A stretch of DNA of 54,237 bases from Erysipelotrichaceae bacterium (GTDB taxonomy: Bacteria > Bacillota_I > Bacilli_A > Erysipelotrichales > Erysipelotrichaceae): assembly GCA_017445225.1 (NCBI GenBank), contig JAFSUN010000009.1, positions 1 to 54,237 on the forward strand. Reading direction: 5' to 3'. Shown here piece by piece: positions 2,384 through 15,035 of this stretch. Numbering within the stretch: position 1 is the stretch's first letter; every line of letters starts with the position of its first letter. The position numbers and the translations under genes were made by a program. The notes beneath the pieces are model-generated. The model saw only the letters and a program-made list of their open reading frames with translations. It was not told where the DNA came from and did not search any database.

Positions 2384-2950
2384 TTAACGATTATTAAGAT
2401 ACTGACGGTAGAGGTCCGCCGCCTTCTCATCGATCATTGCGGCAATGGCCTGGGGATCGTTGATGTGCTGGCGGATGTAGCTGCTGGAGATGTCGATCAT
2501 CGGCATCTTCATGATCACGTAGTCGCTCTTATCCAGTACTGCCATCTTACGCTTCAGGAATGCTTCCCCATAGGGTTCCCGGGGCATGATGATGAACGGA
2601 TACCCGAGCATCTCCCGGTAGTGTTTCCAGCGCGAGAAGCATCTGAGATTATCCCCTCCCAGGATCAGATGCAGGGAGTCATCGGGATATCTCTTTTTCA
2701 ATTCCCTGAACAGCAGATAGGTATAGGGAATGTCATTCAGGTCCCTTTCCAACAGAAGGCCTTCAATGTTCAGAACCTCGGCCATCTGCAGTCTCAATGC
2801 CAGCGGCGAGATGTTCTGCTTGTCCCAGTAGTTGCCGGTAGGAACCAGCAGCACCTTATCGCAGAGATCCTGCTTCAGGCATTCCCTGATGATGGCTTCA
2901 TGGCCCTTATGGAGCGGATCAAAGGATCCGCAATAGACGCCGATCCGCAT
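2384..2950 (-). CDS. nadD: Nicotinate-nucleotide adenylyltransferase
   Basis: This enzyme joins nicotinate mononucleotide and ATP to give deamido-NAD, the step before NadE. The 188-residue protein has the nucleotidyltransferase signature GSFDPLHKGH at residues 8-17 and ISSSYIR at 154-160, the two ATP-binding motifs of the family, and is of normal length. The start overlaps the nadE stop by one base (TGATG), so translation is probably coupled. The position after pncB and nadE supports NadD over other nucleotidyltransferases such as CoaD. Confidence 0.9.
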   Translation of the reverse strand: MRIGVYCGSFDPLHKGHEAIIRECLKQDLCDKVLLVPTGNYWDKQNISPLALRLQMAEVLNIEGLLLERDLNDIPYTYLLFRELKKRYPDDSLHLILGGDNLRCFSRWKHYREMLGYPFIIMPREPYGEAFLKRKMAVLDKSDYVIMKMPMIDISSSYIRQHINDPQAIAAMIDEKAADLYRQYLNNR

Positions 2951-3705
2951 CAGTCTTCCTTTTTGTAGACGGGAATGTTGAACTTGTGACGGGAACCGCG
3001 GTGCAGACGGCTGATGATCTTTTCTTCCTCTTCGCTGACCGGTAAGCCGTTCATTACCCGGGCGATGGCATTGTAGCTGACGCCCAGCTTCTCCTCATCG
3101 CTCATTCCGGACAGGCCGTCATCAGGCGTGCGGTATAAAACCTTTTCCGGTACGCCCAGCACCTCACCGACCTTGATGACCTCTTCCACGGTCAGGCTGT
3201 AGATCGGCGCGATGTCATAGACGGAATCACCGCCCTTGGTGAAATATCCAACATAAAGTTCACAGGCATTGGAAGTGCCGGGAACGATGTAGGTACCCCC
3301 CTTAACCGCGCTTAACAGCGCCGCCATGTAGTAGACGGACATCATCCGCATGCGGGGCTTGATGTTGATGTCGGAGTTCTTTACGGCTTCTTCGTCATAT
3401 TCGCCCAGCAGGTCGATCTGCTTCTTGAAGGTATCGTAGGTATCGGTCAGATCGATGTTGAGCAGTTCAAAGCCGAACTTATCGGCTACCAGTTTGGCCC
3501 CGGCGGCATCGATCGGCTTAGAGTGGCACGGCAAAGTCAGGCCAACGACATTTTCCGGCCCGATGGCCGCGCACATCAAAGCGGCGACGACAGCGGAATC
3601 CTTGCCGCCGCTGACCCCTAATACCGCTCCCTTGAGATGATTGGTTTCATAGTAATTACGGATGAATTCAACGATTCTGTCCTTTTCTCTTACGGCATCA
3701 AACAT
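2950..3705 (-). CDS. nadE: NAD synthetase, ammonia-dependent type
   Basis: It amidates deamido-NAD to NAD with ATP. The PP-loop SGGKDS is at residues 32-37, and the C-terminal half carries PGTSNACELYVGYFTKGGD, the acceptor and ammonia-site region of NadE. At 251 residues it has only the synthetase domain, with no glutaminase domain, so it should use free ammonia. It overlaps the end of pncB by 8 bases and touches nadD by one base. The three genes form the Preiss-Handler route from nicotinate to NAD. Confidence 0.92.
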   Translation of the reverse strand: MFDAVREKDRIVEFIRNYYETNHLKGAVLGVSGGKDSAVVAALMCAAIGPENVVGLTLPCHSKPIDAAGAKLVADKFGFELLNIDLTDTYDTFKKQIDLLGEYDEEAVKNSDINIKPRMRMMSVYYMAALLSAVKGGTYIVPGTSNACELYVGYFTKGGDSVYDIAPIYSLTVEEVIKVGEVLGVPEKVLYRTPDDGLSGMSDEEKLGVSYNAIARVMNGLPVSEEEEKIISRLHRGSRHKFNIPVYKKED

Positions 3706-4912
3706 ATTTTATTACCTCGTTTTCCATTCTCCAGCTGACGCTTCTCTTCAGATAATGTACGTACTTTTCATTCTTGCACATGCCCTTGCCCTCGACGTCG
3801 GACAGCTTGGCAACATCCTGCCCGTTGCACAGCGTCACCTTCATGACGATGTTCAGCGGCTTTACACAGGTATCATTGGCGATGTAGGTGCCGATGCCGA
3901 AAGCGACATTGCATTCGTTATGGAAGTACTCATAGATGGTCGTGGCCTTTTCAAAGTTCAGGCTGTCAGAGAACAGCAAAGTCTTGTTCTTGGGATCAAC
4001 TCCGAGCTTCCTATAGTGTTCAATGATCTTGTCGCCCCAGACGTACGGGTCGCCGGAGTCATGACGGACACCGGTAAACAGCGTAGCATAGGTCAGGTCG
4101 AAGTCTCTCAGGAAACAGTCGGTGGTGATGGTATCCGTCAGAGCAGTTCCGTTGAGCACGCCATATTCATCCACCCAGGCCCGCAAGGCATAGTAATTGG
4201 AATAAGCGGGATTGTGGCGGTGATCACCCTGCCCGGTGCACATGATCCACTCATGGGCCATGGTACCTACCGGCTTGATCTCGTATTTCCGGGCCAGATA
4301 GACGTTTGAGGTTCCCAGGAAATTGGAATTGCCCAGATAGGCCTTGGCCAGATGGGAGACGGCCAGTTCCTGAGCCTCGGCTGACAGTCTTCTTCGCAAG
4401 CCGAACTCTGAGAAGGTCGCCAGCATGTACTCATTCTTGGAAAGCCGGTCAATCTTTTCCTGCAGTCTTTCCCGGAAACTTTCCATCAGCTGCTCGTAGT
4501 CATACTGCATTCGGAAGTAAACCTCATTGACGATGGCCAGGGTCGGCACTTCATACATCGAGGTATTCAGCCAGGTACCGCGGGTCTCGATCTTCAGACC
4601 GCATTCGTCATCGTCTGATATTTCAAAGTCTTCATAGCGCGGCTTCCAGAGTCTTAAGAAGTCCACATAGGAACCCTTCAGCCAGCGGATGGAATGCAGA
4701 TATTCCAGTTCGTCTTCCTTGAAGGAAAGCTGGCAGTACAGTCTGATCTGCCTCTTGATCTCCTCCAGCATTTCGGGAGTAAAGTGGACATCGGTATTGC
4801 GGCACTTGAAGGTCCAGGTCGTCTTATAACTGGGAAACTGGTGATAAATGGCCTGCCCCATGGAGAACTTGTACAGGTCGTTTTCCAGCAGGCTGTTGAT
4901 AATCTGTTCCAT
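3698..4912 (-). CDS. pncB: Nicotinate phosphoribosyltransferase
   Basis: It converts nicotinate and PRPP to nicotinate mononucleotide, the entry step of NAD salvage. NDLYKFSMGQAIYHQFP near the N terminus and VRHDSGDPYVWGDKI in the second half are family signatures. I start at the ATG at 4912, preceded by GTGAGG with an 8-base spacing; an ATG ten codons upstream has no good ribosome-binding site. The protein is then 404 residues, normal for bacterial PncB. It is the first gene of pncB-nadE-nadD. No de novo quinolinate genes are present in the window. Confidence 0.92.
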   Translation of the reverse strand: MEQIINSLLENDLYKFSMGQAIYHQFPSYKTTWTFKCRNTDVHFTPEMLEEIKRQIRLYCQLSFKEDELEYLHSIRWLKGSYVDFLRLWKPRYEDFEISDDDECGLKIETRGTWLNTSMYEVPTLAIVNEVYFRMQYDYEQLMESFRERLQEKIDRLSKNEYMLATFSEFGLRRRLSAEAQELAVSHLAKAYLGNSNFLGTSNVYLARKYEIKPVGTMAHEWIMCTGQGDHRHNPAYSNYYALRAWVDEYGVLNGTALTDTITTDCFLRDFDLTYATLFTGVRHDSGDPYVWGDKIIEHYRKLGVDPKNKTLLFSDSLNFEKATTIYEYFHNECNVAFGIGTYIANDTCVKPLNIVMKVTLCNGQDVAKLSDVEGKGMCKNEKYVHYLKRSVSWRMENEVIKYV

Positions 4913-5002
4913 AACATCATCCTCACTTTTCAACAACTTCATTTTACCATCATTGTGACGGTTTTACTTAACAATAAGCAGGAAATCGGCCTGTAAAAAG
5001 AA

Positions 5003-5046: not shown

Positions 5047-5337
5047 TTATTCCTTATCGCCTTTGATCTTCAAGCTTCGGCTGGGCTTGAAGGCCAAAGT
5101 CTTGCTGGGCAGGATGTCAATGCGGGTCGTCGTATTGGGAATGACCCCCTTCTTGCCGGCCCTCTCCTTCAGGTAGAACTTGCCGAAACCGGTCAGTTCC
5201 ACTTCATTGTCATGATTGACTTCACTGATGATCTCATCGATCAGATAATTCAGATAGGAAGTAGCATCCTTCTTGGTGATGTCAAATTCTTCCGACATTC
5301 TTTCGGCCAGGTCCTTGCGGAATATGCTCTTGCTCAT
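5047..5337 (-). CDS. hup: HU-family DNA-binding protein
   Basis: This is a histone-like protein that binds and bends DNA as a dimer. The 96-residue sequence has the HU fold pattern: KKDATSYLNYLIDEI helices, then VELTGFGKFYLKER and a basic arm ending in a proline-containing strand. HU proteins are about 90 residues. It starts two bases from the gpsA stop codon (TAAATG) and ends the operon. The arm contains PNTTTRIDILPSKTLAFKPS in place of the usual RNPRTG-type core, so it is a divergent HU/IHF member. Confidence 0.85.
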   Translation of the reverse strand: MSKSIFRKDLAERMSEEFDITKKDATSYLNYLIDEIISEVNHDNEVELTGFGKFYLKERAGKKGVIPNTTTRIDILPSKTLAFKPSRSLKIKGDKE

Positions 5338-6333
5338 TTAATTGCCTTCTTTCTTCAGATCTCTCATCATCAGGTCTCTGATGGCGATCGACGGTTTCTT
5401 ACCGGCGAACAGGACATTGTATACTTCGGTAGTGATCGGCATCTCAATGCCGTGGGCATCTGCTTCACCCTTGATGATCTTACAGGCATTGACGCCTTCG
5501 ACGGTCTTGGTATTGGTACGCCAGAATTCTTCCGCGCTGTCATTGATGCCGATGGAATAGCCGGCCTGCCAGTTACGGGAATGCCGGGAAGTGCAGGTAA
5601 CGATCAGATCACCCATCCCGCACAGGCCCATGAAGGTTTCCTTTCGACCGCCGAAATGGACACCGTAGCGAGTCATCTCCGCCAGTCCTCTGGTCATCAG
5701 GGAAGCCTTGGCATTATCACCCAGGCCCAGACCATAGAGAATGCCGGAAGCGATGGCGATGATGTTCTTGAGGGAGCTGCCGTACTGGCAGCCAATCATG
5801 TCGGTATTGAGGTATACGCGGAAATAGTCATTGGCAAAGGCCTTTTGCAGTTTCTTTCCGTATTCCTCATCTTCACAGACGATGTTGACCGTCGTCTGCA
5901 TGCCCAGGATCACCTCTTCGGCATGGCTGGGTCCCAGTAAGGCTGCGTAGCATTCCAGCTTGTCGCCAAACACTTTCTTGAATTCTTCCGACAGGAGCCC
6001 ATGGTTTTCCGGGTTGAAGCCCTTGGCCAGGTTGACGATGATGATCTTCTTATCAATCAGTTCGGCGATCTGTTTTCCGACTTCCACGGAAACGTTGCTG
6101 GGGGTGGCCATGACCACGAAGTCATAGCTGTCAATGTCCTTCAGTTCATTGACGGCTACCATCTCCCTGGGCAGAATGACGTTGTCAAAATACTTGTTGT
6201 TGGTATGGTTGTAGTTGATCTCCCGGACGGTGTTGGGGTTACGGGCGTAGACGGTCACCTGATGACCGTTGTCACACAATACCTTGCCGACGGCCAGTCC
6301 CCAGCTGCCGGAGCCTACGATTAATGCCTTCAT
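5338..6333 (-). CDS. gpsA: Glycerol-3-phosphate dehydrogenase [NAD(P)+]
   Basis: It reduces dihydroxyacetone phosphate to sn-glycerol 3-phosphate for phospholipid synthesis. The Rossmann motif GSGSWG is at residues 7-12; LLGPSHAEE and GSSLKNIIAIASG, which carries the catalytic lysine, follow, and the length of 331 is typical. Its start overlaps the der stop by one base, and hup follows at once. The der-gpsA-hup order matches the arrangement in Bacillus subtilis. Confidence 0.95.
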   Translation of the reverse strand: MKALIVGSGSWGLAVGKVLCDNGHQVTVYARNPNTVREINYNHTNNKYFDNVILPREMVAVNELKDIDSYDFVVMATPSNVSVEVGKQIAELIDKKIIIVNLAKGFNPENHGLLSEEFKKVFGDKLECYAALLGPSHAEEVILGMQTTVNIVCEDEEYGKKLQKAFANDYFRVYLNTDMIGCQYGSSLKNIIAIASGILYGLGLGDNAKASLMTRGLAEMTRYGVHFGGRKETFMGLCGMGDLIVTCTSRHSRNWQAGYSIGINDSAEEFWRTNTKTVEGVNACKIIKGEADAHGIEMPITTEVYNVLFAGKKPSIAIRDLMMRDLKKEGN

Positions 6334-7640
6334 CAGTTCTTCTTCCTCGCCAGTATTCTTATCGGGTTGCCTTCAAAGCCGAAGGCTTCTCTTAAACGGT
6401 TCTCCAGATAGCGCTGATAGGAGAAATGCAGCAGCGTCTCATCATTGACGAACAGCACGAAGGTTGGCGGGGCTACCGCAACCTGGGAAGCGTAATTGAT
6501 CTTCAGCCGGCGGCCGTTATGGGTCGGCGGCGGCGTGGTTATCTGGGCATCGGAGATCACCTCATTGAGCAGTGAGGTGCTGATGCGCTGCTGGGAATAG
6601 TCATAGACTTCGTTGATCAGCGGGAACAGGGTCTGAATGCGGCTGCGGTTCTTGGCGGAAACGAAAGCCACCGGCGCATAATCCAGATAGACGAACTGCT
6701 TGCGGATCTCCTTGGTCACCAGATCCATGGTGTACTGATCCTTCTCGACCAGATCCCACTTGTTATAGACGATGATGATGGCCTTGCCGGCCTGATGGGC
6801 GTAGCCGGCCACATGCTTGTCCTGCTCGCTGATGCCCAATGAGCCATCCAGAACGAACAGAACGACATCGCACTTGTCGATGGCCTTCATCGCCCTTAAT
6901 ACGGAATACTTCTCAATACTCTCGTAGATCTTGCCTCTCTTGCGGATGCCGGCGGTATCAACGGCCACATAGGAGACACCATCCTTTTCAAACGGTGTAT
7001 CGATGGCATCACGGGTGGTTCCCTCAATCGGGGAAACGATGACGCGCTGCTGGTTGATCATCGCATTGATCAGGCTGCTCTTACCGACGTTCGGCCGGCC
7101 GATGACCGCAAATCTGATCATGCCTTCATATTCTTCCTTTTCCTCATCGCCGAGATAAGCAACGATCTCATCCATCAGGTCACCGATGCCGATGCCGTGG
7201 ATGCCGCTGACGGGAAGCGGATCGCCCAGGCCGAGCATGTAGAATTCATAGATGTTGTCCCGCTGTTCGATGTCGTCGATCTTGTTAACGGCCAAAATGA
7301 CCTTCTTGCGGGTCTTCTGCAGCATTCTGGCGATGTACTGATCGTCATCGGTAACGCCATCGCGGCCGTTCGTCAGCATGATGATCAGGTCCGACTCATC
7401 AAGAGCCAGTTCCACCTGGGCCTTTATTTCTACTTGAAAAGGTTGATCCTCAATTTGGATGCCACCTGTATCAATGACATTAAAACTTTTGGTCAACCAT
7501 TCACACTTACCATAAATACGGTCACGGGTCACTCCCGGGGTATCGTCCACGATGGAAACTCTTTCTCCCACCATCCGGTTAAACACCGTGCTCTTGCCGA
7601 CATTGGGACGGCCGACTATGGCAACAGTTCCAATCGACAT
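6333..7640 (-). CDS. der: Ribosome-assembly GTPase Der (EngA)
   Basis: Der is an essential GTPase in 50S subunit maturation. It has two tandem G domains: GRPNVGKST at residues 10-18 with a DTPG motif, and GRPNVGKSS near residue 181 with DTAG. NKID and NKWD specificity motifs follow in each, then the C-terminal KH-like domain. Length 435 is standard. It lies between cmk and gpsA in the same operon. Confidence 0.97.
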
Positions 7641-7652
7641 GAAATCACTCCC

Positions 7653-8312
7653 TTACTCTCTGCTGGCGATAATTTCCATTATGGCGTCAGTCACTTCGAT
7701 TATCGACATGTTGGAGGTATCGATCTCCACGGCGTCATCCGCCTTTCTGAGCGGCGAATTCTTGCGGTGGGTATCCTGATAGTCCCTTTCGATAATTTCC
7801 TTCTTAAGAGTCCTCATGTTGCTTTCGAGGCCTCTTCTGGCATTTTCCTCATATCTTCTTCTGGCGCGGCATTCAACGGAAGCCGTCATGAAGATCTTTA
7901 CTTCGGCATCGGGCAGAACGACCGTTCCGATGTCGCGGCCATCCATTACGTAGCCCTTGTTTTCCGCGATCTTCTGCTGGAGTTCCACCAGCTTCTTTCT
8001 GACCACGGCATAGGCGGAAACGGTGGAAGCCAGCATCGAGATCTCATCGGTCCGGATGAGCTTGCTGACATCTTCACCGTACAGAAGCACCTTTTCATCG
8101 GGGGTGAAATCGATCTGGATCTCATTCATCTCCCGGGCCAGTTCTTCTTCATCTTCGTAGTTTATTCCCTTGCGCTTGACATCCAGGGCAACGCAGCGAT
8201 ACATCGCTCCGGTATCAAGATGCCGGTAATTCAGACGGTGACACAGTTCCTTGGCGATGGTGCTCTTGCCGGAGGCACTGGGTCCGTCGATCGCAATATT
8301 GATGTCTTCCAT
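7653..8312 (-). CDS. cmk: Cytidylate kinase
   Basis: It phosphorylates CMP and dCMP. The P-loop GPSASGKST is at residues 10-18, YRHLDTGAMYR follows, then VMDGRDIGTVVLPDAEVKIFMTAS and the lid RRRYEE. The 219-residue length is normal. Its start codon overlaps the stop of the long acidic gene by one base, so the two are probably translationally coupled. It is followed by der. Confidence 0.96.
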   Translation of the reverse strand: MEDINIAIDGPSASGKSTIAKELCHRLNYRHLDTGAMYRCVALDVKRKGINYEDEEELAREMNEIQIDFTPDEKVLLYGEDVSKLIRTDEISMLASTVSAYAVVRKKLVELQQKIAENKGYVMDGRDIGTVVLPDAEVKIFMTASVECRARRRYEENARRGLESNMRTLKKEIIERDYQDTHRKNSPLRKADDAVEIDTSNMSIIEVTDAIMEIIASRE

Positions 8313-10810
8313 TACAGTAAACCCCTCTGCTGTGCGAAGAAGTATCCGATGACCAGCAGGATGACGAACAGTGCCAGAATCAGCAATGTCACGACGACAT
8401 TGAGGATCCTGTCAGTCCTGGATACGGTATTGTTAACGTTATTGAGTTCGTTCTCATATTCGGAAACCTGGAGCTTCAGCTGCTGGGTCTGTTCAAACAG
8501 TTCTTCGCGTTTCTGTCTCTCTCTTTCAAGTTTCTCATTCAGTTCATCGATGTGGCGGGAATCCTCAACGTAAACGGTCTTGACCGGCTGATCTTCGGAT
8601 TCTTCCGGCTGCGGCTGATACTGTGGCTCCTCATCATCATCCAGGCCATACTGCTTCATGTTGGCAATGGCACTGGCGATGGAATCGGTATCGACCGGTT
8701 CCTCGGCCTCTTCTTCGGGTTCCTCATTGATGGCGAAATCATCATCGTCATCATCAGCGATGCTGAAGAAGTTGGCGAAGAATCTCGGCTTCTTGACTTC
8801 AGCGGCAGCTTCTTCCTTTTCCCGGGTCTCTTCTTCGATCTTGTTCAGTTCCTTGAAGACATTGACCTGGGTATTTTCATCATTACGTAATCCGGCTTCG
8901 ATGTTATGAGTCTTGACGTCTCTGATGATGCTTTCGATCTCGGAGAACTGATCCTTCTCGTCTTCGGCATCCTCCAGGGAGAACTGGGTGCTCATTTCAT
9001 CGAGTTCCTTCCTGGCAGCGACATCAAACTTCTCCGCGTCGCCTTCAACATTGAAGGTGGGCAGCTTTTCGGCTTCTTCCTTGAACTTGAAATCGCCGTC
9101 CTCAAAGTCTTCCAGGAAGTATTCCTTGGTATCTTCCGGCTCTTCTCCGGCTTCAGCCTGCGCTTCTTCGGCCTGATCATCTTCCGCGATCAGACGGTTG
9201 AGCTCTTCCAGTTCACTGTTATCAAACGGAACTTCTTCAACTTCCGGCTTCTTTGGGTTAATGATATCCTCAGCGGTGACTTCTTCGATCTGCGGTTCCT
9301 CGGCGGCTGCCGGTTCTCCGGCTGCTTCTGCCGCTTCCTCAACAACCGGTTCTTCAGCCGGTTCTTCATCGGCTTCCAGTTCGATCTCGGCATATTCTTC
9401 CTTTTCTGCATTGATCGGCTGGACATAATCAGGATTGGTCTCGTCAAAGTCTTCGGCCATTCTGGCAACCTTCTCAGCCGTCTCGGAAATCTGATCATCT
9501 ACCTGTTCGTAGGATTCAACTTCGTCCCCGATGAAAGGCAGCTGGCTGCTGTAATCCGGCTCTTCTTCAATTGCATCCATGTCGGAGATGGTATCGGTAT
9601 TGTCAAACTTCTCGTTTTCGTCGTAGACCAGACCGTACTTCTCTTCGATCTCCTGATTATCATAGTATCCGGCATTGATGATTCCGTCGGTCGGTCCGAA
9701 GACACTGGACACCTTCGGCAGTTCACCGGTAAACTTGCCGGCGATCGTCTGCTTTCTGGTTTCATCAGCCAGTTCCGTGCTCTCTTCGATGCCGGTCTGT
9801 TCATACTGAACATCGTCGATCAGATCGGCAGTTTCTTCACTGAATTCATCAACCGCTGCTTCCGCAAACTCATCAGCGTTATCCCTGATCTCTTCCGCGG
9901 TCTCCTCAGCAGCCTCTGCAATCTCTTCAGCTGCTTCTGCATACGGCTTTTCCAGTTCTTCGATCTCATCGCTCAGGTCGATGACTTCGCTGTCTTCCAT
10001 TACTTCCTCGCAGCTTTCACAGACAGCCGGGATCTCGGCAGTACCGGCAAATTCAACATCGGTATTCTCCTCGATCACTTCATCATCAGGATAGCCTTCC
10101 AGCGGCTCCACCCTGACTTCCTCGCTGTCAGTGTCCAGAGTATCTACTCTGATCTCTTCAATGTCGTCAACGGCGATCTGCTCTTCGCTGACTACGGCAT
10201 CCTCACTGATGTCTTCCAGGGCTGCCGGTTCTATAATCATTTCTGTACTATCTTCCAATACTTCAGGGGAAACAGCTTCTTCTGTTTCCTGTTCACAAGC
10301 TTCTTCAGCTTCCTTTGTGTAGATATCAATATTTTCCATATCCTCGCTTAACAAACGACTTTCTCCGGAATCATCATCCGGTCTGTCTTCTTCCTCCGGT
10401 TCTATTTTCTTTATATTCTCAACAGGATCGGCATCCTGGTTTTTCAAAGATAATTCCCCGTCAGAAGCTTGATCTTCGTGAGGATTATCCGAAGCTTTTT
10501 TCAAAGCTTCCAGATTCAGTTTTTCCGTAGCAGCTGCCGCTTCCCTGATCCGGTTGCGCAGCTGATCAGACAGTATTTCCGTTCCCTGGCTGCTTTCGTT
10601 TTCAGCCATGGCCATAAGCCGAATGGTGTTTTCCAGGTCAAAATCACTGCTGACACCCAGATTCGGAAATTCCTTCTCCAGATTTCTCAGGAACTCTTCC
10701 TGTTCCCTGATCATCTGTTCGTATTTTTCCGAAATCGCTTTGGAGGTATCAACATTTCTCTTAGTGACAGGCTTTTCCTGTTTCTTCTCCCGGACTTCTT
10801 CGGCCATCAT
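8312..10810 (-). CDS. Large acidic protein with a C-terminal membrane anchor, function unknown
   Basis: I do not recognise this 832-residue protein. It begins with a short basic stretch (REKKQEKPVTKRN). Most of the remainder is low-complexity, very rich in Glu and Asp, with hardly any predicted fold. Near residues 745-800 is a charged coiled-coil segment (ELNEKLERERQKREELFEQ), then one hydrophobic segment (VVVTLLILALFVILLVIGYF) and a seven-residue tail. That makes it a tail-anchored cytoplasmic protein with almost nothing outside the cell. It sits between efp and cmk and overlaps the cmk start by one base. Two adjacent ATGs (10810 and 10807) are possible; AGGGTG fits the second slightly better. 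A role as an acidic scaffold at the membrane is only a guess. Confidence 0.8.
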   Translation of the reverse strand: MMAEEVREKKQEKPVTKRNVDTSKAISEKYEQMIREQEEFLRNLEKEFPNLGVSSDFDLENTIRLMAMAENESSQGTEILSDQLRNRIREAAAATEKLNLEALKKASDNPHEDQASDGELSLKNQDADPVENIKKIEPEEEDRPDDDSGESRLLSEDMENIDIYTKEAEEACEQETEEAVSPEVLEDSTEMIIEPAALEDISEDAVVSEEQIAVDDIEEIRVDTLDTDSEEVRVEPLEGYPDDEVIEENTDVEFAGTAEIPAVCESCEEVMEDSEVIDLSDEIEELEKPYAEAAEEIAEAAEETAEEIRDNADEFAEAAVDEFSEETADLIDDVQYEQTGIEESTELADETRKQTIAGKFTGELPKVSSVFGPTDGIINAGYYDNQEIEEKYGLVYDENEKFDNTDTISDMDAIEEEPDYSSQLPFIGDEVESYEQVDDQISETAEKVARMAEDFDETNPDYVQPINAEKEEYAEIELEADEEPAEEPVVEEAAEAAGEPAAAEEPQIEEVTAEDIINPKKPEVEEVPFDNSELEELNRLIAEDDQAEEAQAEAGEEPEDTKEYFLEDFEDGDFKFKEEAEKLPTFNVEGDAEKFDVAARKELDEMSTQFSLEDAEDEKDQFSEIESIIRDVKTHNIEAGLRNDENTQVNVFKELNKIEEETREKEEAAAEVKKPRFFANFFSIADDDDDDFAINEEPEEEAEEPVDTDSIASAIANMKQYGLDDDEEPQYQPQPEESEDQPVKTVYVEDSRHIDELNEKLERERQKREELFEQTQQLKLQVSEYENELNNVNNTVSRTDRILNVVVTLLILALFVILLVIGYFFAQQRGLL

Positions 10811-10827: not shown

Positions 10828-11385
10828 TTAAGCTCTTCCGCAGTATTTTCCGTCGATCGTGGATACCAGAATGACTTCATCCTGTTCGATGAACAGCGGA
10901 ACCTTGACATTCCAGCCGGTCTCCAGCACGGCATTCTTGGAGGCGCTGGTAGCGGTATCGCCCTTGACGGCGCCTTCAACTTCGACGATCTGCAGAGCTA
11001 CCTTGTCAGGCAGCTGGATGCCGAGGATCTCACTCTCATAACTGGTAATGCTGACGTTGTCATTCGGTTTCAGGAAGTTGAGTTCCCAGGTCAGGTTGGC
11101 CTTTGGGATCTCGATCTGATCATAGGTAGCGTTATCCATGAAGACCAGTTCGTCACCGGCATCATAGAGATACTGCATTTCCTTCTTTTCAATGGCGGCC
11201 GGTTCAACCTTGTCACCGCCGGTGAAAACGACATCCTTGATCGTTCCGGTGCGCAGGTCCTTAGCATGGGCCTTGACGACCATCTGTCTCATGGCTGTCT
11301 TGTTCAGCGATGTGCTCAGAGTAATGTAGAGATTACCCTCGTAAATGAATGTTGTTCCCGGTTTTAAGTCATTAACCAAAATCAT
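10828..11385 (-). CDS. efp: Translation elongation factor P
   Basis: EF-P relieves ribosome stalling at polyproline. All three beta-barrel domains are present in 185 residues, with MQYLYDAGDELVFMDN and the C-terminal VSTIDGKYCGRA. The domain I loop that normally reads KPGKG around the modified lysine is instead NKTAMRQ (residues 28-34), so the usual modified-lysine position is a methionine by my alignment to the B. subtilis protein. Mollicutes have a similar loop, as I recall. No modification enzyme gene is nearby. It heads the efp-hup operon. Confidence 0.93.
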   Translation of the reverse strand: MILVNDLKPGTTFIYEGNLYITLSTSLNKTAMRQMVVKAHAKDLRTGTIKDVVFTGGDKVEPAAIEKKEMQYLYDAGDELVFMDNATYDQIEIPKANLTWELNFLKPNDNVSITSYESEILGIQLPDKVALQIVEVEGAVKGDTATSASKNAVLETGWNVKVPLFIEQDEVILVSTIDGKYCGRA

Positions 11386-11520: not shown

Positions 11521-11558
11521 CCGCTGAAAATCCGGCAGTTTTCCACCGTTTCAGCGGT
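11513..11558 (-). terminator. First terminator after the comG operon
   Basis: A 10-bp stem (ACCGCTGAAA/TTTCAGCGGT) is followed by TTTTTTATCC on the minus strand. The comGG stop codon TGA lies inside the stem, so translation to the end would cover one arm. Confidence 0.75.
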
Positions 11559-11919
11559 ATTTTTCCACAAAATCACCGATGTCATCAAACACCAGCTCCC
11601 TTTTTCTTTCAAATTCTCCACACCTGATGACGATCTCGGCCGTCAGGTCCCGATACTTGACAGTAACTCTAATGTCGTCGATGACGAATGATTCATCCTT
11701 TTCCCGGTATCCCCGGTAGCTGTCCTTGATCCGGTTGACTATCAGGATCTCGGCCCGGTTCATTTTCCGGATGGCCGGCAGATCCTTCTTGAATCGGTAA
11801 TAGGTCACATGTCCTGCCGTAATGACGGAACAGATGGAAATGATCATTGACAGGATCAGCAGCGCATGGATCGAGATGAATCCCCTACTCTTTATGCCAA
11901 TAGGCGACCGGCCAGTCAA
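11551..11919 (-). CDS. comGG: Minor pseudopilin, ComGG position
   Basis: The N-terminal region carries a prepilin-type segment, KSRGFISIHALLILSMIIS, followed by about 90 residues of variable sequence. The residue five after the cleavage glycine is His instead of the usual Glu, as in GspK/ComGG-like tip pseudopilins. No ATG lies near the motif: the frame offers TTG at 11919 (used here, with GGGA six bases upstream) or ATT at 11901. The ORF overlaps comGF, and its stop lies in the terminator. Identity rests on gene order and the prepilin motif. Confidence 0.6.
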   Translation of the reverse strand: MTGRSPIGIKSRGFISIHALLILSMIISICSVITAGHVTYYRFKKDLPAIRKMNRAEILIVNRIKDSYRGYREKDESFVIDDIRVTVKYRDLTAEIVIRCGEFERKRELVFDDIGDFVEKYR

Positions 11920-12292
11920 AAGCGATCCCGTCCTTCCGATATCTGAGATAGATGATGTCATCTTCATCCGCAAACTCCACTTCTTCGATGCCGTGAACGA
12001 AATCTACCGTCCCGGGCTGGGAGATCAGCTTGCCGTTGACGATGTGCAGGCAGAAATCCTCCCCCTGCTTGCGGTAGACGATCTGATCGGCTTCCACGGA
12101 GACAATGTCGTTGACCGCCAGTTCCAGCTGCAGCTGATAGATGCCGATCTCATCCTGATAGTAGACCCGGTCAGCTTTCAGCAGATTTCGCAGTCCTCTG
12201 ATCAGGGGACTGCTCAGCAGCGTGATCAGGGAAAGGATGAAGAGCGCCAGAACCACTTCGATCAGGGTGAACCCTCTTCGGCCGGCGGCAAT
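11885..12292 (-). CDS. comGF: Minor pseudopilin ComGF, apparent ATT start
   Basis: The conventional start (GTG at 12256) would cut the prepilin signal in half. Reading the same frame upstream gives AAGRRGFTLIEVVLALF, a perfect type IV prepilin motif with Gly, Phe and Glu5. The only possible initiator before the in-frame TGA is ATT at 12292-12290, and GAAAGGAG lies 10 bases before it. The protein would then be about 135 residues. ComGF is a minor pseudopilin of the competence pilus, processed by ComC. It overlaps the comGE end and the comGG start. Confidence 0.75.
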   Translation of the reverse strand: MAAGRRGFTLIEVVLALFILSLITLLSSPLIRGLRNLLKADRVYYQDEIGIYQLQLELAVNDIVSVEADQIVYRKQGEDFCLHIVNGKLISQPGTVDFVHGIEEVEFADEDDIIYLRYRKDGIAFDWPVAYWHKE

Positions 12293-12516
12293 AACGGTTC
12301 ATCTCCTTTCTCTTCCAGGGGTTTTATCCGCTTTTCGGGATCCCAGATCTTCCGATAGTCCTCATCCTGCCACAGTTCCTTCATTTTGTCATCCTCTATC
12401 CGGTAACGGAAGGAATGCCTGCTCAGGGCTGCCGACTGTAACAGCTGAGCGACCAGACAGAATACTGTCAGGGATATCAGCAGATCCAGCAGGATGAACC
12501 CCCTAGCGTTTGACAT
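12262..12516 (-). CDS. comGE: Minor pseudopilin, ComGE position
   Basis: The 84-residue protein starts MSNARGFILLDLLISLTVF, a prepilin segment with Asp in place of Glu5. It is short and has a charged C-terminal half ending LLPPAEEGSP. Its position between comGD and comGF assigns it as comGE; sequence alone would not. It overlaps both neighbours, so the operon is translated as a coupled unit. Confidence 0.7.
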   Translation of the reverse strand: MSNARGFILLDLLISLTVFCLVAQLLQSAALSRHSFRYRIEDDKMKELWQDEDYRKIWDPEKRIKPLEEKGDEPLLPPAEEGSP

Positions 12517-12817
12517 AGAGCCTCCCGGTGCCCAGGGAGATGATCACTTTTTCATGGCAGATGACCAGTGTATTGGCCTTGCGGGCATTCCCCCTGCGGT
12601 TAAAGTACAGCTGCAGGTTTTCCCGGTCATTTTCATAAAGAACGCTCTTGCAGTCGCGGATCGCCTCAAACTGGGCATCGGTGATCTCATCGACGACCTG
12701 GGCCACGGTGGTGACGTTGCGGAATCTATGAGCCGTCGGCAGAGCCAATAAGGTCAGTACCGAGATCAGAAACAGTACCAGCAGGCTTTCCAGCAGGGTA
12801 AAACCTCTAATCCGCAT
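12503..12817 (-). CDS. comGD: Minor pseudopilin ComGD
   Basis: The start is the ATG at 12817, overlapping the end of comGC by 11 bases and preceded by GGGGAGG; longer in-frame starts lie within comGC. The product begins MRIRGFTLLESLLVLFLISV, a typical prepilin peptidase substrate with Glu5, followed by a small beta-rich globular part. It should be processed at the membrane by a prepilin peptidase, which is not in this window. Confidence 0.82.
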   Translation of the reverse strand: MRIRGFTLLESLLVLFLISVLTLLALPTAHRFRNVTTVAQVVDEITDAQFEAIRDCKSVLYENDRENLQLYFNRRGNARKANTLVICHEKVIISLGTGRLYVKR

Positions 12818-13100
12818 GAGCCTCCCCGTTGGAAATATAGATGTGAGCTCCATTGGGACAGGTCCCCTGCGCATCGGTGAGATAACCCTCAGCGATCAGA
12901 TCATCAACATCCCCGGGCATTTCCCCGTTTTCCAGGTCATAGAGCAGGATCTGGGAATTGATGATCTCCAGCAGGGCCTCACAGCCCTTGTTGTTGATGA
13001 TGCGCTTCTTCTGAGCGATATTGGGAACGGTGATCAGAACGATGATGGAAACGACGGTCAGGACCAGGATCATCTCCAGTATGGTAAATCCTTTCTTCAA
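12807..13100 (-). CDS. comGC: Major pseudopilin ComGC
   Basis: This is the main subunit of the competence pilus that binds or draws in external DNA. The protein starts MKKGFTILEMILVLTVVSIIVLITVPN, the prepilin motif with Glu5 and the hydrophobic N-terminal helix. It is 97 residues, the usual ComGC size, with Cys residues at CEALL and TCPNG that could form a disulfide. Confidence 0.9.
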   Translation of the reverse strand: MKKGFTILEMILVLTVVSIIVLITVPNIAQKKRIINNKGCEALLEIINSQILLYDLENGEMPGDVDDLIAEGYLTDAQGTCPNGAHIYISNGEAHAD

Positions 13101-13111
13101 ATTGCCTCCTT

Positions 13112-14077
13112 TCAGATGCCTTCGAGCAGCTCTAATGGCATTAACAGGACCAGGTAGGACAGCACGATGATGACGGTCACCAGTCCATAGCAGACTCCCT
13201 GCATGATAACTGACGTCCTCTTGACGATCGTCTGCAGGCGGATCTCCACCATCTCCATGTAGTCCTTCAGAGCACCGTCGAAGTCACCGGTCTTCAATCC
13301 CATAATGCACAGCGGATGAAACTCATCATCAAAGTATTCCAGTTTCAGGCTGTCCTGGAAATTCTCTCCCTTTTCCAGCAGATCCTCCAGATGATAGCCT
13401 AACAGGGCCGTAAGGCGGTTTTCCTGCTGGCTGCGGATGATTCCGACAGCCTCCGGAAGTCTGATCCCCCTTTCCAGAAGACTGCTCAGGCGGCGTGAAA
13501 ACTCGCTGGTCACGTACATCCGGATCAGCCGGTCCTTCTTCTTACCGTGCAGCCAGGCCCAGAGATAGGTCTCCTTCTTTCTTCTGACGACGAGATACAG
13601 CAGAAAGCTGACGGTGCCCAGAGCCAGAAAACCGGTTATCTCACTGATGGAGATGATCCGGAAGACGGTCATGATGGCAGTTGTCTTCTCCTGCGGCAGG
13701 GCCAGTGAGGAAACGATGCTGGGGATCATCACCTGCTGAAAGAAGACTAACAGGATGAAGGAAAGCACCACCAGCAATATCTGATAGCCCAGCGAGCCGG
13801 CGGTCTTCTTTAAAAGTCCCTTCTCCTTCAACACTTCCTGCCGGGAGACCTCGATGGCCATGGGCAGGGAAAGATGATCAAGATAGAAACCGATCTTCCT
13901 TTCCAGACGGGTGGCCTTGAGGATGCTCTTCAGCGGTATGCCGTCATTCAGACAGTCGGCTATCTTTCTTATTCCGGCCGTGGCGGGATAGAGCTTTTCC
14001 ATGACCTCAATGGCTTCCTGCAGGCTGTATTCCCTTTCACACAGCCGGGCCAGAAACAGCCACTGATGATCAGCCAT
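13112..14077 (-). CDS. comGB: Pilus inner-membrane platform protein ComGB
   Basis: The frame is open to 14152 but the first 25 codons overlap comGA. I use the ATG at 14077, 13 bases after the comGA stop, giving about 321 residues, close to other ComGB proteins. It has the GspF/PilC layout: two repeats of a helical domain, each followed by membrane segments (LLVVLSFILLVFFQQVMIP, ITGFLALGTVSFLLYLVV and VTVIIVLSYLVLLMPL). The platform works with ComGA to assemble the pilus. The upstream ribosome-binding site is weak, which suggests coupling to comGA. Confidence 0.88.
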   Translation of the reverse strand: MADHQWLFLARLCEREYSLQEAIEVMEKLYPATAGIRKIADCLNDGIPLKSILKATRLERKIGFYLDHLSLPMAIEVSRQEVLKEKGLLKKTAGSLGYQILLVVLSFILLVFFQQVMIPSIVSSLALPQEKTTAIMTVFRIISISEITGFLALGTVSFLLYLVVRRKKETYLWAWLHGKKKDRLIRMYVTSEFSRRLSSLLERGIRLPEAVGIIRSQQENRLTALLGYHLEDLLEKGENFQDSLKLEYFDDEFHPLCIMGLKTGDFDGALKDYMEMVEIRLQTIVKRTSVIMQGVCYGLVTVIIVLSYLVLLMPLELLEGI

Positions 14078-14090
14078 GAGCGCTGACCGG

Positions 14091-15035
14091 CTACCTGATG
14101 ATCTCATTTTCCAGAGCAATGGCCAGCTTGCGCTCCATGGTTTCCACCTCAATGTTACGGTCCCGCCGGAATCTTTCCAGATCTTCTCCCGTCAGGATGT
14201 CGTAGACACAGGTATAGCCGCTGGTATCTCTCAACGGGCACAGCCGCTGGTTGACGATGCCCAGCAGGGAATCAAACAGATGGTTTTCATCGACTCCCAG
14301 TTCCAGCAGGCGGTAAATGGCACCGGTGGTGCTGCGGGCATGCAGACTGGTCACCACCAGACAGCCGGTCAGCGCTGCCCGTACGGTCATCCTGGCCGCC
14401 TTCTCGTCCCTGATCTCCCCGATCATGATGATGTCGGGATTGTGCCGCAGGATCTGCTTGATGCCCTCGTCATAACTGAAGCCGATCTTCTCGTTGATCT
14501 CCAGCTGGATCATGTTCTCATGGACGGCCTCGATTGGATCCTCCAGGGAATAGATCGTCCGGTTTCTGATCCTGGACAGCAGCGAATACATCGTAGTGGT
14601 CTTGCCGCTTCCCGTTAAACCGGTAAACAGTATCAGTCCGTTTCTTCTTTCCAGCCAGCCGTCAAAGATCGTCATGGCACTCTTATCATAGGTCAGTTCA
14701 TCGAGGCTGAAGCCCTCGTGACAGTTCAGGATTCGCAATACCCCGCTTTTTACCTTTCTGGTAACGATGCAGGCAAAGCGGAAATCCAGATAGCGTCCCT
14801 GATGATAAAGAGCGAAGGATCCGGACTGCGGCCGGTTGATCTCCGTAAGATCCATGTTGGACCGGAACTGGAGATAGTTAAAGAGGCGTTCGTCAGCTTC
14901 GGAAGGCTCGACACTGACGAGGCCGTTTAATCCCCTTATCTGAATCACCGTCCGGTCCGGATAAATGGACAGATGGACATCGGTGGCCCGCTGCCCAAGG
15001 GCCATGTCCAGCAGTTCTTCAAATCTTTCTTCCAT
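14091..15035 (-). CDS. comGA: Pilus assembly ATPase ComGA
   Basis: This is a GspE/PilB-type secretion ATPase that powers competence pilus assembly at the cytoplasmic face. Walker A GLTGSGKTTT lies at residues 139-148, an Asp box (YSLEDPIE) follows, then Walker B IIMIGEIRD and the His box TSLHARST. At 314 residues it is shorter than B. subtilis ComGA, lacking an N1 domain. AGAGGA precedes the start. It is the first gene of comGA-GG. Confidence 0.95.
   Translation of the reverse strand: MEERFEELLDMALGQRATDVHLSIYPDRTVIQIRGLNGLVSVEPSEADERLFNYLQFRSNMDLTEINRPQSGSFALYHQGRYLDFRFACIVTRKVKSGVLRILNCHEGFSLDELTYDKSAMTIFDGWLERRNGLILFTGLTGSGKTTTMYSLLSRIRNRTIYSLEDPIEAVHENMIQLEINEKIGFSYDEGIKQILRHNPDIIMIGEIRDEKAARMTVRAALTGCLVVTSLHARSTTGAIYRLLELGVDENHLFDSLLGIVNQRLCPLRDTSGYTCVYDILTGEDLERFRRDRNIEVETMERKLAIALENEIIR

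Follow-up and report, generated by a model that had tools for sequence, protein, structure and literature searches.

The accepted role of GpsB is that of an adaptor for wall enzymes, so that its retention in wall-less bacteria is a puzzle. For example, the minimal cell JCVI-syn3.0 keeps a putative GpsB/DivIVA protein, MMSYN1_0353 (PMC4993169); cmk is gene 0347 in JCVI-syn3A (PMC6609329). The GpsB ligands PBP1, YpbE and YrrS share the motif SRxxR(R/K) (PMC6335420), and S. aureus FtsZ and PBP4 carry the GpsB-docking motif (S/T/N)RxxR(R/K) (PMC11062636). For Bacillus PBP1, Ser7 caps the helix and Arg8 enters the GpsB groove, where it pairs with Asp31, which is held by Tyr25; backbone amides touch Asp35, and Arg11 pairs with Glu17 (PMC6335420). 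YpbE of B. subtilis has an N-terminal cytosolic part of 56 residues with the sequence SRVERR, then a single membrane helix and a large extracellular LysM domain, and binds GpsB with a Kd of 13 uM (PMC6335420). YrrS/RagB, also of B. subtilis, has a short N-terminal GpsB-binding motif, one membrane helix, an extracellular disordered region and a folded domain, and acts on RodA (PMC12457691). FacZ, a GpsB antagonist of S. aureus, has one membrane helix at the N terminus, a membrane-proximal coiled coil, and a basic, disordered cytosolic arm with a C-terminal motif of the GpsB-docking class (PMC10914604). Searches of the open-licence literature gave no paper on Erysipelotrichaceae GpsB and, by titles and the opening lines of abstracts, none on GpsB in naturally wall-less bacteria.

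The locus analyzed here encodes a member of a family that shares features with all three. Members of its family have a single membrane helix, and those of one related group (f10) begin with MSRVERH or MSRMERH, similar to YpbE. Unlike YpbE, proteins of the family end a few to about 40 residues past the helix, usually have a long cytosolic linker, and contain no LysM domain by Pfam. With FacZ they have in common the membrane-proximal coiled coil and the disordered cytosolic arm, but the layout is reversed, with a C-terminal anchor in all 100 loci, an N-terminal motif, and an arm that is usually acidic. The family may thus consist of GpsB-docking membrane tethers, like FacZ and YpbE in a different layout, a reading that we hold to be evenly balanced.

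The window is the whole stretch of DNA analyzed, 54,237 nucleotides of an Erysipelotrichaceae genome. Its relevant features are:

5047..7640 (-): der, gpsA and HU genes; a similar cluster reaches gpsB in other lineages
7653..8312 (-): cmk (cytidylate kinase), overlapping the acidic ORF by 1 nt
8312..10810 (-): acidic tail-anchored protein, 832 aa, an expanded member of the family kept directly upstream of cmk
8327..8560 (-): continuous helix, aa 751-828; conserved juxtamembrane coiled coil and C-terminal anchor (hydropathy segment 799-817)
8846..8929 (-): block B, IIRDVKTHNIEAGLRNDENTQVNVFKEL, aa 628-655; family-wide mid motif YLDxFIxEVKxYN..G.R..DTQ.NIL
9662..9721 (-): short linear motif LPKVSSVFGPTDGIINAGYY (VSSVFGPTDGI), aa 364-383, in the disordered region; it recurs in congeners
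10667..10729 (-): block EKYEQMIREQEEFLRNLEKEF, aa 28-48, conserved in two genera, that of the window and its sister
10736..10810 (-): N-terminal 25 residues; site of GRSRxxRYxxLR in relatives, a motif absent in the window copy
10828..11385 (-): efp (elongation factor P); this adjacency is not conserved across the family

The original prediction described an 832-residue, mostly disordered protein rich in Asp and Glu, with a C-terminal coiled coil and a membrane helix at the very end, and our analysis bears this out. Asp and Glu make up 31.1% of the protein and Lys and Arg 8.4%; for sixteen further genes of the window the Asp and Glu content is 11-23%. In a charge-hydropathy plot, residues 49-750 are placed well into the disordered region (mean hydropathy 0.399, boundary 0.508). 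A single-sequence AlphaFold2 model of residues 623-832, by its nature weak evidence, contains one continuous helix (751-828, pLDDT mostly 86-97) that runs into the membrane segment; the rest of the model is of low confidence. The helix is nevertheless the stretch most conserved among relatives. The ORF starts with ATGATG, 17 nt past the efp stop. At its other end, the stop codon shares one base with the start codon of cmk (TAATG), and the ORF contains GAGGGG, a likely Shine-Dalgarno sequence for cmk. We consider the ORF a genuine gene because tail-anchored homologues or positional equivalents occur in all relatives in which the sequence upstream of cmk could be read. Opposite it is an antisense ORF of 481 aa (8906-10351, (+)), probably a by-product of the GAA/GAG-rich codons.

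With cmk as the anchor, an ORF with a C-terminal membrane segment was found directly upstream of this gene in 100 of 100 Erysipelotrichaceae loci (the L140 ORF lies 398 nt from cmk, and a few ORFs are cut by contig ends). The ORF is thus present in close relatives, and the original view of such a protein as rare in bacteria does not hold. The close relatives with named records are metagenome-assembled genomes of Erysipelotrichaceae or Erysipelotrichia, many from goat, sheep or rumen samples. Complete copies range from 208 to 1635 aa (median 309), and length correlates with acidity (rho 0.52). Long acidic versions occur in the window's genus, in its sister genus and, separately, in some other genera.

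An alignment of 40 members has three conserved blocks: LSRVKKYEELR at the N terminus, with the motif Arg invariant throughout; NEYLDxFIxEVKxYNxxKGxRxxEDTQxNIL in the middle; and, at the C terminus, the coiled coil with the membrane segment. The second and third of these are present in the window copy, which also has a genus-level block, EKYEQMIREQEEFL, and lacks the N-terminal motif. A search with the window protein gave matches in 13 of 41 genomes, its own included, mostly via the C-terminal region; a genome scan with this single protein as query returned no relative. Homology to a known family was also looked for, and none matches. When scanned against Pfam and NCBIfam, the window protein gave nothing above the curated cut-offs, and the 40 members gave scattered matches, each in few members, to unrelated coiled-coil or membrane families (best E 2.7e-5, RIFIN). 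A PDB profile search gave nothing (best E 0.19). In a class-wide profile search convincing homologues were confined to Erysipelotrichaceae, and the lower-scoring matches look like chance matches to coiled-coil or membrane proteins. As judged from sequence, this is a family of putative membrane tethers encoded directly upstream of cmk and without a Pfam or NCBIfam model.

A motif [S/T]-R-x-x-[K/R] lies near the start of 95 of the 99 copies with complete 5' ends, compared to 12 of 651 background ORFs (1.8%). An example is the 20-residue N-terminal peptide of a canonical member (locus L058), MEKLSRVKKYEELRKSIETD. It is missing from four copies: that of the window, that of a congener (G008, locus L048), L051, where the ORF appears to be broken, and L109, where N masks the sequence. 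The motif resembles the published GpsB-docking consensus (S/T/N)-R-x-x-R-(R/K); it departs from it in that the second basic residue is usually Lys and is followed by an aromatic one. The strict published consensus is matched in some members only (e.g., SRVQRR in family f7). A hidden alternative start was considered for the window copy, and no in-frame upstream start restores the motif. The sole [STN]R..[KR] match in the window protein is a juxtamembrane SRTDRI at residue 797, not N-terminal. G008 has SRTNR at its juxtamembrane site, and GpsB was not found in this genome. We also considered whether class A PBPs of these bacteria carry the same motif and rejected this: in the copies read, the N terminus is a short basic tail that lacks it.

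We compared the strict motif with the presence of GpsB (a PF05103 match above cut-off, of the short N-terminal type) in 91 genomes, leaving out six with ambiguous PF05103 matches. Both are present in 49 genomes and neither in 31; 11 have GpsB only and none the motif only (Fisher's p 2e-15, a value that ignores kinship). On a single-gene cmk tree, a model in which the two traits are dependent beats the independent model (LR 21.5, p=2.5e-4). A "loose" motif rule gives LR 32.6; we do not rely on it, as it was set after seeing the data. Parsimony places about 4 changes of GpsB, or about four independent co-losses; these events are few, but all of them agree. The GpsB-less genomes are mostly one clade (27 of 31), the remainder being G008 and three genomes of family f16. 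Within f16, G404, G259 and G199 have both the motif protein and GpsB (G199 by the loose rule only) and G188, G209 and G306 have neither. In the genus of the window, both occur in G001, G003 and G005 and neither in G008, which is 97% complete. GpsB was not found in the window's own genome, weak evidence of absence at 75% completeness. The scaffold or division role that was originally thought conceivable gains support for the family, from the GpsB-ligand-like motif and from its co-occurrence with GpsB.

Loss of the cell wall was considered as a cause of the co-occurrence and rejected, as the presence of PBPs does not follow the pattern. Transpeptidase domains are absent from f8, f5, the tested f16 genomes and G191, and f8, f5 and G191 nevertheless have both proteins. 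Families f4 and f9 and the genomes G242, G248 and G353 have transpeptidases and neither GpsB nor the motif protein.

The motif may instead dock another conserved cytosolic partner, such as DivIVA or another divisome protein, that was lost in the same lineages as GpsB. The co-occurrence is correlative, and several gene losses may coincide in the large GpsB-less clade. We think this explanation unlikely. In f8, f19 and most of f5 we detected just one PF05103 protein, and it is of the GpsB type. The chemistry of the motif fits the solved GpsB complexes (PMC6335420). DivIVA in particular is unsupported, as G008 has a DivIVA-type protein and neither GpsB nor the motif, so that the motif follows GpsB.

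GpsB docking also agrees with the groove residues of the adaptor, as Tyr25 and Asp35 are kept in 45 of 46 GpsB sequences and Asp31 in 42 of 46. Four f5 GpsBs (L290, L340, L365 and L367) have Asn in place of Asp31, and there the partner motif is without its second basic residue. This is suggestive of a joint change, probably within one clade.

Profile matches were convincing only inside the protein's own family, so we compared other families of the class by position; the case for homology between the f1 proteins and theirs is made by position, architecture and motif, with no contribution from profile scores. Tail-anchored ORFs with the motif, about 86-380 aa long, lie upstream of cmk in f2, f3, f7, f8, f10, f18, f19 and most of f5. 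In f9 a tail-anchored ORF is present at this site without the motif, and f12, the exception to the pattern, has GpsB and no such ORF at cmk. Where readable, the neighbor of cmk in f4, f11, f14, f15, f17, f20, f21 and f22 is mostly rluB-like, an assignment made by sequence reading and not by profile match. In f16, a UGA-reading family, the ORFs upstream of cmk in genomes that keep GpsB have the motif and no membrane segment (L297, L303, L315); by this pattern, docking on GpsB may outlive tethering.

The short f8 members contain only 4-15% Asp and Glu and keep the motif and the anchor. These members bear on the possibility that the protein is an acidic membrane brush with no role for GpsB, in which an anchored polyanionic linker would bind basic proteins, polyamines or cations, or crowd the membrane, and the motif would serve some other partner. 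Such a brush would be in keeping with the acidic composition, the extreme spread of lengths and its correlation with acidity, and with the window copy and that of G008, which are without the motif yet have an anchor and an acidic linker. However, acidity is not the common feature of these proteins, as the f8 members illustrate, and the motif tracks GpsB. We regard the brush as rather improbable.

The link with cmk alone is general across the family: cmk lies within 50 nt downstream in 98 of 99 complete copies, and only 39 of the 99 have efp closer than 200 nt. The position looks like part of an ancient conserved cluster. In f8 and one UGA-reading Mollicute-like genome, gpsB itself is in the gene cluster of the tether, in the order tether-cmk-der-(gpsA)-HU-...-gpsB. 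The 1-nt overlap and the conserved cmk adjacency could also point to an accessory factor for translation or nucleotide metabolism, coupled to efp and cmk. We consider this highly improbable given the minority of copies with efp nearby, the lack of any nucleotide- or ribosome-binding domain in the Pfam and NCBIfam scans, and a cluster that elsewhere also includes der, gpsA, HU, dnaD-like, recU-like and gpsB genes. The same efp counts leave unsupported the earlier suggestion that the dose of the protein is tied to translation and nucleotide supply.

For the GpsB-docking tether, the sequences contain a C-terminal anchor, a conserved helix before it, a disordered linker that varies greatly in length and is usually acidic, and, in most copies, the motif. 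The N-terminal peptide would form a short helix capped by Ser or Thr, and the invariant Arg would enter the acidic groove (Tyr25/Asp31/Asp35) in the N-terminal domain of GpsB. The anchor could then tether GpsB hexamers to the membrane at a division or growth site, or GpsB could gather many copies of the tether. The disordered linker would set reach and crowding. The pair may have a role in division or shape that goes beyond wall synthesis, because wall-less relatives retain both proteins without any penicillin-binding protein; such a protein was looked for in f8 and in the wall-less Mollicute-like bacteria and not found. We propose tentatively, as something possible though doubtful, that GpsB and its tail-anchored partner form a peptidoglycan-independent module for division or shape that survives in the wall-less Mollicute-like and f8 bacteria, where the groove would be kept for the partner.

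At the sequence level, the window copy is derived: it has grown to 832 aa and lost the N-terminal motif. It probably no longer docks on GpsB, as in G008, and probably acts as an acidic membrane tether via its remaining conserved blocks. The family points to a division-linked tether, of which the window species carries a lengthened, motif-less form. A conserved partner with a docking-like motif beside cmk, in some lineages with gpsB in the cluster, makes the puzzle of GpsB in wall-less bacteria directly testable. From under 100 to over 1600 residues, these proteins also form a natural series for studying how the function of a disordered tether depends on its length and charge, and the lineages that lost the motif are a built-in contrast.

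Other genes surround this locus. Directly upstream of efp (11551-15035, (-)) there is a competence-pilus-like set with several short pilin-like ORFs, a T2SSE ATPase and a T2SSF protein. An NAD salvage set (NAPRTase, NAD synthase and a nucleotidyltransferase) lies downstream of the HU gene (2384-4942, (-)). In two loci of the window's genus (L327 and L331), gpsB lies beside pgsA-like and cinA-like genes, compared to a ponA neighborhood in other genera, and in L327 a recA-like gene follows next after these neighbors.
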